A stretch of DNA of 21,151 bases, taken from a virus. Of this stretch, positions 8,007 to 11,904 are shown in pieces (within the stretch, counting starts at the first letter, position 1; every line of letters starts with the position of its first letter). Both the position numbers and the translations under genes were made by a program. Below the pieces are notes generated by a model. That model did no database searches. It was not told the origin of the DNA and saw only the letters and a program-made list of their open reading frames with translations. The stretch is from positions 1 through 21,151 of IMG/VR virus record IMGVR_UViG_3300025647_000339; one strand, 5' to 3'.

Positions 8007-8747
8007 ATGAGTTTACCATATTTCAATTTATACCCAACGGACTTCGAGGCAAAAACCTCGCATTTGACGTTGGAAGAGGACGGCGCATATAACCGCCTAT
8101 TGCGCCTGTGCTGGATGTCGCCGGGGTGTAGCTTGCCAGACGATGACGCTTGGATCATGCGCCGCATGCGCTGCGATCAAGACACATTCAATCGCGTTGT
8201 GTCAGTTGTGCTTGATGAGTTTTTTACGCGGTCAAATGGGCGCGTTAGCAATGCTAGGATGACAAAAGAATTTGCATCATCTAGCGCAGCACATTCCAAG
8301 CGCGTTTTGGCTGGAAGTAAGGGCGGCGCAGCTAAGTCATTGAAATCTATTGCGGCCGCACCTAGCAATGCTAAAGCAATGCCCAAGCAACCAGAACCAG
8401 AACCAGAACCAGAACCAGATATAAAAGAAAAGGAAGCTATCGCTTCCCCAAAAAAACAAACCCGAAAAATAAAGTTGCCTGATGATTGGGTTCCAAGCGA
8501 ACGAAATTATCAAGACGCAACAGATCGCCAATTCTCAGCAAAGGAAATAAACGATGAAGCCGACAAATTCCGCGACTGGCACCATTCCAAGGGAACAACA
8601 TTCGCCAACTGGGATGCAGGGTGGCGAACATGGCTTGGCAACGCGCGGAAGTATTCAGCCGGTCGCACTTCCAACGCCCACGCCACAAGCCAAGCAATTG
8701 CTTTTGCCGGGGTCGCGGGCCGGTCGCCTTCTGAAGATTGTTTCTAA
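8007..8747 (+). CDS. DUF1376 family replication protein
   Basis: From the ATG at 8007 (GAGGG upstream) the protein has 246 residues. The N-terminus is the DUF1376 domain: PYFNLYPTDFEAKTSHLTLE, then GAYNRLLRLCW, then LPDDDAWIMRRM near residues 43-54. This winged-helix-like domain is found in phage replication proteins that occupy the position of lambda O. A linker of PEPEPEPEPD encoded by a CCAGAA tandem repeat follows. The C-terminal region has LPDDWVPSERNYQDATDRQF and FRDWHHSKGTTFANWDAGW, a primosome-type module that binds DNA. It ends AIAFAGVAGRSPSEDCF, of which a second copy is found at 11487-11579. The role as replication initiator is inferred from family and position. Confidence 0.82.
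   Translation: MSLPYFNLYPTDFEAKTSHLTLEEDGAYNRLLRLCWMSPGCSLPDDDAWIMRRMRCDQDTFNRVVSVVLDEFFTRSNGRVSNARMTKEFASSSAAHSKRVLAGSKGGAAKSLKSIAAAPSNAKAMPKQPEPEPEPEPDIKEKEAIASPKKQTRKIKLPDDWVPSERNYQDATDRQFSAKEINDEADKFRDWHHSKGTTFANWDAGWRTWLGNARKYSAGRTSNAHATSQAIAFAGVAGRSPSEDCF
8246..8500. other. possible replication origin inside the DUF1376 gene
   Basis: TAGCAATGCTA, a palindrome, occurs at 8246-8256 and 8363-8373, and its core GCAATGC occurs again at 8376-8382. An inverted repeat GGAAGC-TATC-GCTTCC (8432-8447) and an A-rich stretch (about 8420-8530) follow. In lambda-type phages the origin lies in the initiator gene with repeats next to an A/T-rich region. Only two full repeats are present, so this is a weak candidate. 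On the minus strand the inverted repeat followed by TTTTCTTTT would also work as a terminator of antisense transcripts. Confidence 0.25.
8391..8420 (+). repeat. CCAGAA tandem repeat
   Basis: Four perfect copies of CCAGAA and one CCAGAT encode the linker PEPEPEPEPD in the DUF1376 protein. Such repeats can change length by slippage in units of two residues without breaking the frame, which would alter only the linker. Confidence 0.9.
8655..8747 (+). repeat. 3' end of DUF1376 gene, functional copy of a diverged direct repeat
   Basis: These 93 bases align without gaps to 11487-11579, with about 60 identical positions by hand count. Most differences near the 3' end are at third codon positions of the frame that ends SPSEDCF. 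Together the two copies bracket the helicase, methyltransferase and zinc-ribbon genes. Confidence 0.8.
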
Positions 8748-8781
8748 CGCGATTAAATTGCGACTAAGCGCTAAAAATGCG

Positions 8782-8837
8782 TTTACATCATCCCCGCAAT
8801 GTGCGAATAATTACAAGCGCGGCTAGGTTGGCCAACC
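8782..8837 (+). promoter_or_regulatory. promoter and palindromic operator of the helicase cassette
   Basis: TTTACA (8782-8787) and AATAAT (8806-8811) each match the consensus at five of six positions and are 18 bases apart. A perfect 12-bp palindrome GGTTGGCCAACC lies at 8826-8837, just after the expected transcription start near 8818, where a repressor would block elongation. GCTAG at 8822-8826 and 8842-8846 flanks it. The 148-base gap 8748-8895 thus appears to be a control region. Confidence 0.6.
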
Positions 8838-8895
8838 GAACGCTAGTCCTCCCCTAGCTGCCGCGCACAACAAGGGAGACGCCAAGGAGGGCGAT

Positions 8896-10281: not shown

Positions 10282-11276
10282 AACAACCAGAATTTAGCGG
10301 GGCCGGGTGGGCTTTGCACAACTCGGATTGCATCGAGGGCATGCACGCAATGCCTGAAAACAGCGTTGATCTGACGATCTTTTCTCCGCCATTTGGTGAC
10401 TTGTTCGTTTACAGCGATAGCGAGCGTGATCTTGGCAATGCGGGCACTGGCCAAAAGTTTATCAACCAATACAAGTTTTTTGCTGATGCTCTAACGCGGG
10501 TAATGAAGCCGGGGCGAATTGCATGCGTGCATTGCACTGATTTGCCGATGCGCAAGGGCCGCGACGGGGCTATTGGATTGCAAGACTTTAGCGGCGACTT
10601 AATCAAGGCTCATACGGCGGCGGGGCTTATTTATCATGGCCGCGCCACCATTTGGAAAGACCCTGTAGTTGAGATGCAACGGACAAAGGCGCTTGGTCTG
10701 TTGTATAAGCAGATCCGCAAAGACAGCGCTATGAACCGTGTTGGGATGCCTGATTATATGCTGTTTTTTCGCAAGGACGGCGATAATCCAGACAGGATTG
10801 AACACTCTGCGCCGGGCGACATTAAGGCGGCGCTACCAATTGCGCGGAAATGGATGGAACACATGCGCAAGCAAGGTCTATGCGCGACTGTTCCAAATGA
10901 TGAATTGCTTGTTGAGTTGATCAAGCATGCAGAGTTTGACGTTTACGAATGGCAAAAGCTGGCAAGTCCTGTCTGGATGAATATTAATCAGGGCAATGTT
11001 TTGAATGGATACCGCGCGGCCAAGGGGCAGCATGACGAGCGCCACGTATGCCCATTGCAGCTTGATACGATTGAGAACTGTTTGCGGCTTTATAGCAAGC
11101 CGGGGGATGTGGTTATGGACCCATTTAACGGGATTGGCAGCACGGGGTTCCAGGCTGTTAAAATGTTCCGCAAATATATCGGGTTTGAGTTGAAGCCGGA
11201 ATATGCTGCGCAGGCTAACAAGAACCTAAAAGACGCAGAGACTACGGCGGGTGACTTGTTCGGGGCGGCGGCGTAA
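10278..11276 (+). CDS. beta-class DNA amino-methyltransferase
   Basis: The 332-residue protein has motif IV SPPF at 36-39 near the N-terminus and the SAM-binding motif I DPFNGIGSTG at 281-290 near the C-terminus. This circular order defines the beta class, and SPPF/SPPY occurs in both N4-cytosine and N6-adenine enzymes, so the modified base cannot be told from sequence alone. The long middle (about 100-260) is the target-recognition part, with TIWKDPVVEMQRTKALGLLY and MPDYMLFFRKDG. It is the second DNA methyltransferase of the window, without a restriction enzyme, and fits phage self-protection. It is coupled to the helicase and the zinc-ribbon gene. Confidence 0.9.
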   Translation: MKQPEFSGAGWALHNSDCIEGMHAMPENSVDLTIFSPPFGDLFVYSDSERDLGNAGTGQKFINQYKFFADALTRVMKPGRIACVHCTDLPMRKGRDGAIGLQDFSGDLIKAHTAAGLIYHGRATIWKDPVVEMQRTKALGLLYKQIRKDSAMNRVGMPDYMLFFRKDGDNPDRIEHSAPGDIKAALPIARKWMEHMRKQGLCATVPNDELLVELIKHAEFDVYEWQKLASPVWMNINQGNVLNGYRAAKGQHDERHVCPLQLDTIENCLRLYSKPGDVVMDPFNGIGSTGFQAVKMFRKYIGFELKPEYAAQANKNLKDAETTAGDLFGAAA

Positions 11277-11464
11277 TGCAAAATGAACTTGAGTGGGTTG
11301 GGGTATCGGTCCCCAACTCGCGCGGGATATTCCGCCGCGCATGCCCATGGTGCAGCCATACGCGGAAAAAAAAGCGCGAGAAGTGTTTGAAAGTGATTGT
11401 TCGGAAGTCATCTGCGACAATGCAGTGCTATCATTGCAAGATTGAGAAGGATATTTCCGCATGA
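11276..11464 (+). CDS. zinc-ribbon protein, 62 aa
   Basis: The protein has two cysteine pairs: CPWC (residues 23-26) and CYHC (51-54), with a further Cys37 between them in a lysine-rich segment (RKKKREKCLKVIVRKS). This is the layout of a zinc ribbon like those at the N-terminus of phage primases. The protein is too short to be a primase, so it may be a stand-alone DNA-binding or adaptor module of the helicase/methyltransferase cassette. Its ATG overlaps the methyltransferase stop (TAATG) and its stop overlaps the next start (ATGA). The direct-repeat remnant starts just after its stop. Confidence 0.75.
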   Translation: MQNELEWVGVSVPNSRGIFRRACPWCSHTRKKKREKCLKVIVRKSSATMQCYHCKIEKDISA

Positions 11465-11904
11465 TCAAGGCATCAACAGAGATACAGCATCGGGCGGAAC
11501 TTCCGACACCATCGCCACGGGTAGCGCAATCGCTTTCGCCGGAACAGCTCGCCGCGCACCGTCAGAGGATTGCTTTTGACGTCGAGGTCGTCTTGTCGGG
11601 ATACTGGCAATCATTTCCACCAGCGGCGATTAAAGCGGGCATCTTGGCCGATTGGTGCGATGCGCTGGAGGACTGGACGCCGGAGCAAATCCTCTATGCG
11701 CTGCGCAAATGGCGCAATGACTTTCCCGACAAGCGCCCCAACCCCGGCCACATTGTCGGCATGATGAAAGACCTTCGGGGCCGCAGGCTTGCTAAGACGA
11801 TTGCGCCAGCGGCAGAGCCTGAAGCTGCCCCGCGCATTAGCAAGGAAGCCGCTGCGGACATCATGGCGGCGCATGGTTTTCGGCCCAAGACATTTATCGA
11901 TTAA
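11461..11904 (+). CDS. phage replication-associated protein, 147 aa
   Basis: The protein reads PRVAQSLSPEQLAAHRQRIA near the start, then FDVEVVLSGYWQSF, then the conserved-looking block ILADWCDALEDWTPEQILYA and LRKWRNDFPDKRPNPGHIVG, MMK. I recognise this last block (W-x-x-EL, then ALRKWRN-x-x-P-x-KRPNPGHI) from small proteins in replication regions of alphaproteobacterial phages; a helicase-loader role is possible but not shown. Residues 9 to 39 are encoded by the same DNA that carries the DUF1376 tail remnant in another frame. The ATG at 11461 overlaps the zinc-ribbon stop, so the N-terminus may be a new join. Confidence 0.75.
   Translation: MIKASTEIQHRAELPTPSPRVAQSLSPEQLAAHRQRIAFDVEVVLSGYWQSFPPAAIKAGILADWCDALEDWTPEQILYALRKWRNDFPDKRPNPGHIVGMMKDLRGRRLAKTIAPAAEPEAAPRISKEAAADIMAAHGFRPKTFID
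11487..11579 (+). pseudogene. remnant of a second DUF1376 C-terminus
   Basis: In a frame other than that of the 147-residue gene, these bases encode ASGGTSDTIATGSAIAFAG, then TARRAPSEDCF, then TGA. The DUF1376 protein at 8655-8747 has SAGRTSNAHATSQAIAFAG, VAGRSPSEDCF and a stop at the same place. Identity is about 19 of 30 residues, and many base differences are silent in this frame. It is the leftover end of a related gene that once overlapped the 147-residue gene. Confidence 0.75.

Follow-up and report, generated by a model that had tools for sequence, protein, structure and literature searches.

A probable mosaic junction of two phage lineages at an overlapping replication gene

Background

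Morons and mosaic gene boundaries were reportedly described in lambdoid phages by Juhala et al. in 2000. The locus analyzed here belongs to a 21,151-base metagenomic IMG/VR record (IMGVR_UViG_3300025647_000339), the whole of which is referred to as the window. Like the lambdoid morons, it has extra genes between genes that are adjacent in relatives. It differs from them in that the extra genes form a multigene unit with a structured RNA leader, and in that a displaced overlap appears to have left a double-coding relic.

The closest published case is Island3 67/68 of the mycobacteriophages. There, in comparison with Brujita, the final 18 residues of the upstream gene (about 50 bp) recur where the inserted gene ends, and recombination at this repeated end was given as the explanation (Pope et al. 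2011, PMC3029335). As in the window, a gene lies between neighbours and the end of the upstream gene is repeated. However, in Island3 both copies of the repeat stand at gene ends and an overlapping pair is not described, whereas the second copy in the window lies within the next gene in another frame. The two copies in the window also differ by 35%, unlike the Island3 case.

Sulfitobacter phage phiGT1 (MT584811) has, in genes 58/59, the same tail type and the same 147-residue gene (ORF147) without a cassette. The last 116 bases of gene 58 overlap gene 59, the ORF147 homologue, and its tail reads ...TIASRARRTPGPNCF. In contrast to the window, gene 58 is a short replication-type gene with another type of body, and the methyltransferases of phiGT1 are located elsewhere. 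Pseudanabaena phage Pan4 (genes 37/36) encodes a helicase that is 74% identical to that of the window, followed by a methyltransferase; the neighbourhood differs from that of the window and the pair is followed by a cytosine methyltransferase. No description of the tail/ORF147 overlap was found in the literature searches made.

Results

The window has a DUF1376-type replication (primosomal) gene at 8007-8747 (+), with an ATG start codon at 8007 and matches to Pfam DUF1376 (4.7e-21) and a PHROG primosomal protein (1.4e-22). The gene ends in an SPSEDCF tail and has no overlapping downstream gene, unlike its relatives. ORF147 is located at 11461-11904 (+), and a cassette of three genes lies between the two. 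The end of the DUF1376 gene (copy 1, 8655-8747, +) recurs after the cassette (copy 2, 11487-11579, +) with 60 of 93 bases identical (64.5%) and no gaps. Local alignment of the two regions scores 32, a value that none of 1000 dinucleotide-preserving shuffles reached (mean 13.4, maximum 24); the repeat of about 65% in the original prediction is therefore real. The translations are SAGRTSNAHATSQAIAFAGVAGRSPSEDCF and ASGGTSDTIATGSAIAFAGTARRAPSEDCF, each followed by a stop. The stop of copy 2 at 11579 falls within ORF147 in a frame that differs from that of ORF147, which agrees with the predicted out-of-frame placement. Similarity of copy 2 to the relatives is reliable from about 11490-11500 and weaker back to about 11461. 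Identity between the copies is 0.70, 0.87 and 0.35 at tail codon positions 1, 2 and 3. The proposal that many differences are silent has to be qualified: comparison with the relatives places the third-position change on copy 1, not on copy 2.

The overlap of an upstream gene with ORF147 is the ancestral arrangement. It is present, wherever the upstream gene is present, at nine IMG/VR loci, at further loci and at eighteen bacterial loci (mostly Rhodobacteraceae). The nearest clade to the window has the same PSEDCF-type tail in its overlap, and the arrangement in pCB2047-C and EBPR podovirus 2 is the same, with different tails. Pairs without a cassette include phiGT1, L107/L108 and the Pararhodobacter locus L118. 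After removal of near-identical loci, 77 distinct ORF147 loci from phages, IMG/VR and (mostly) Rhodobacteraceae genomes were judged. Relative to the first base of the ORF147 match, the end of the replication gene ranges from 56 bases upstream to 142 bases downstream at 72 of them; at the other five the match begins 53-62 bases past the replication gene stop. None of the 77 has an insert between the two genes. The uninterrupted relatives that the original prediction called for therefore exist, with the flanking genes adjacent at 77/77 loci as for a moron or inserted cargo, and the window holds the only split pair.

The two sides of the cassette have different closest relatives. ORF147 is most similar to that of phiGT1 (63.6% over residues 6-112), followed by L051 (60%) and L004-L006 (57-59%), whereas those of L107/L108 are only 43% identical to it. 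The C-terminal domain of the DUF1376 protein is closest to L141 (80%) and then to L107/L108. The same domain type in L107/L108 and L118 (62%, 61% and 47%) overlaps ORF147. L141 was considered as the parent of this gene and set aside, its contig ending before the tail. ORF147 is predicted to be all-helical (pLDDT 83.9), with no PDB match at E<=0.001 and no Pfam family at the cut-off. From its position, a role as a helicase loader (G39P-like) is a guess.

Judged by eye, the upstream genes of the relatives fall into four or more body types with little in common but the tail. Exchange at the boundary of the replication gene and ORF147 is therefore recurrent, and the variable part there is the body of the upstream gene. 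Even where the overlapping gene has been lost, the replication protein retains the tail (...AIAFA..A.RSPSEDCF at 8676-8747 and at related loci), and this points to a binding peptide. DUF1376 proteins in L098-L103 and L143-L149 have the same C-terminal domain with another tail (e.g. SSLASIAARR), and their genes too stop inside another long open frame. These DUF1376 replication genes may therefore tend in general to overlap the gene that follows them.

The constraint on each copy was scored in both frames against 18 intact relatives, over a tested overlap of only about 23 codons. In intact pairs the bases are read twice, with tail codon positions 3 and 1 serving as ORF147 positions 2 and 3, respectively. 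Copy 1 is normal in the tail frame (2.65; relatives 2.51, sd 0.37) and abnormal in the ORF147 frame (0.99; relatives 2.96, sd 0.19). Its tail third positions have an identity of 0.36 to the relatives, compared with 0.75 among the relatives. Randomizing all silent sites of copy 1 gives an ORF147 score of 0.21 (sd 0.47), against which the observed 0.99 has a p of 0.06, so the decay of this frame is close to saturation. The overlapping partner of copy 1 was therefore probably lost long ago. A trace of ORF147 was sought downstream of copy 1 (8748-8900) and did not rise above shuffled sequence.

Copy 2 is normal in both frames (tail 2.50, ORF147 2.96). When the silent sites of ORF147 were randomized the tail score fell to 0.20 (sd 0.44), and 0 of 5000 randomizations reached 2.50. 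The silent third positions of ORF147 in the window have an identity to the relatives of 0.72 inside the overlap and 0.48 outside, similar to intact pairs (0.71/0.49). Therefore, the replication gene of copy 2 was lost recently or its relic frame is still under selection.

The first gene of the cassette encodes an SNF2/DEAD-type helicase (8896-10281, +; Helicase_C 7.4e-9, PHROG 62 DNA helicase 4.3e-56). The second encodes an N6/N4 DNA methyltransferase (10278-11276, +; N6_N4_Mtase 2.1e-22), and the third a 62-residue CxxC...CxxC zinc-ribbon-like protein (11276-11464, +) whose stop codon (11462-11464) shares ATGA with the start of ORF147. The zinc-ribbon protein has no match in the family libraries or the phage collection; relatives follow the methyltransferase, as in the window, in L049 (52%) and L106 (39%), and judged against L049 the gene is full length. 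In each of the 37 viral contigs in which the helicase was found, the methyltransferase comes next. The two genes are downstream of an intact replication gene/ORF147 pair in L054, L061, L071, L049 and L106. In L048 they stand immediately before such a pair, and in EBPR podovirus 2 at a greater distance before one. The original prediction that this is a cargo site with variable contents is not supported, because no other cargo was found at this place: none of the 77 loci holds any, and the cassette recurs elsewhere, beside intact pairs.

PADLOC gave matches to helicase subdomains and generic methyltransferases only, and no nuclease gene was recognizable within the cassette. Thus neither the nuclease partner of a restriction-modification system nor a full-length match to a known defence model is present. 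The helicase and methyltransferase would likely modify or protect the phage DNA. GC content is 0.50 inside 7990-11490 and 0.565 outside (log-likelihood gain 21.5). This dip was rejected as a sign of import, since the DUF1376, helicase and methyltransferase genes have the same lower GC relative to ORF147 in nearly all relatives. Elsewhere in the window, a C5 methyltransferase frame (3046-3933, +; PHROG 363, 1.1e-83) is overlapped by a nested frame of 244 residues on the same strand (3140-3874, +; PHROG 1008, 1.4e-25), and both match phage DNA methyltransferase families.

An int-alpA RNA-like leader (RF02996) is located before the helicase at 8816-8879 (+), its 3' end about 15 bases ahead of the helicase start. 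The match of 34.4 bits (E 1.4e-4) is below the gathering threshold of 35.8, which L029, L061, L054, L071 and L060 reach. The same element precedes the helicase in L016 (1697-1766), L018 (2191-2257), L029 (4749-4817), L054 (5763-5828), L061 (3326-3391) and L071. Since L029, L054, L061 and L071 have above-threshold copies at the same place, the leader seems to be part of the unit. Rfam classes this RNA as an sRNA, and its placement before the helicase would be a cis-regulatory position. The distance from the end of the RNA to the helicase start codon is 13-20 bases at six loci. A pseudoknot-type pairing between the loop and the 3' side covaries among copies (CTCCC/GGGAG, GCTGCA/TGCAGC, ACTCCA/TGGAGT) and is significant alone in only some of them.

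Discussion

The interval is best explained as a mosaic junction of two phage lineages at the boundary of the replication gene and ORF147, with the relic ordering the steps. The probability of this reading is put at a little over two in three. As expected of a mosaic, neighbouring segments have different closest relatives (phiGT1, L051 and L004 for ORF147; L141 and L107/L108 for the DUF1376 C-terminal domain). The junctions also fall at gene ends and leave the genes intact: the zinc-ribbon gene is full length with its ATGA, and the DUF1376 gene keeps its tail and stop. The split is known from one genome only, the 21,151-base window.

From these traces we infer two parents, an order of events and recombination at gene ends. 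Ancestrally, roughly the final 70-120 bases of the replication gene double as the start of ORF147, read in another frame. Lineage A would have given the DUF1376 gene with a tail that had long been free of an overlapping ORF147. Lineage B would have given ORF147, having lost its own replication gene only recently. The unit of int-alpA leader, helicase, methyltransferase and zinc-ribbon gene would lie between the two parts, its last stop codon overlapping the ORF147 start. By the most likely route, the DUF1376 gene and cassette of lineage A would have displaced the replication gene of lineage B up to the start codon of ORF147. The relic tail would have stayed because deleting the bases in common would also have destroyed ORF147. 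A lineage A parent, a PSEDCF-tailed DUF1376 gene free of ORF147, was not found among the related loci.

A second, two-step route to the same junction, itself a version of this explanation, is put at somewhat under one in three. Here the cassette would already have stood beside the resident gene, DUF1376 would have arrived upstream, and the body of the resident gene would then have been deleted. L048, in which the helicase and methyltransferase immediately precede the intact pair, and EBPR podovirus 2, in which they lie at a greater distance upstream, are consistent with this starting point; however, an intermediate with both replication genes was not found. A single event in one genome is improbable. 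An insertion of the cassette that duplicated the overlap, with each copy then retaining one frame, accounts for the repeat flanking the insert and has a similar repeat pair in Island3 67/68 (PMC3029335), but it predicts equal decay. The free sites of copy 1 are near saturation while copy 2 shows no excess decay, and this asymmetry favours two parents over one duplication. The two-phage recombination of the original prediction is thus retained in its two parents. Its single insertion splitting one intact pair does not fit, because copy 1 had been without its partner for a long time when copy 2 lost its replication gene.

Continued translation and selection of the relic frame, for instance as an extension of the zinc-ribbon protein reached by frameshifting, would leave copy 2 looking equally intact, and its state would then reflect selection and not recency. 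This is about as improbable as the single event. Between about 11397 and 11579 the frame is open and seems to be under full selection, but upstream of the tail it has no ATG or GTG and only TTG at 11397 and 11442, there is no obvious slippery site, and the tail in relatives is always part of a replication gene. An assembly chimaera of two phages is slightly less probable again. The record is a single metagenomic one and the junction is on no second contig; however, both junction genes are full length with a common ATGA, which would be rare from a random join, the order of the three cassette genes recurs in L049 and L106, and misassembly cannot produce the decay of copy 1.

The type of event, phage mosaicism, is already known; what is unusual in this variant is a double-coding relic from which the order of the steps can be read. 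Tentatively, and somewhat against the odds, the tail/ORF147 overlap may be a fixed anchor for swapping unrelated replication-gene bodies in Rhodobacterales-type phages, with the tail having its own conserved job. That job would be independent of the overlap, because copy 1 keeps the tail after its second frame has decayed.

The junction offers a datable example of ordinary gene shuffling in phage evolution. In overlapping genes the same bases are constrained by both frames, which makes such genes difficult to study. Here a natural split separates the frames: copy 1 reveals which tail residues are retained on account of the replication protein only, and copy 2 sets a bound on how long ago the swap took place. 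The split suggests that phages can swap replication genes despite an overlap that ought to prevent this, with the body replaced and the shared bases left inside the next gene.
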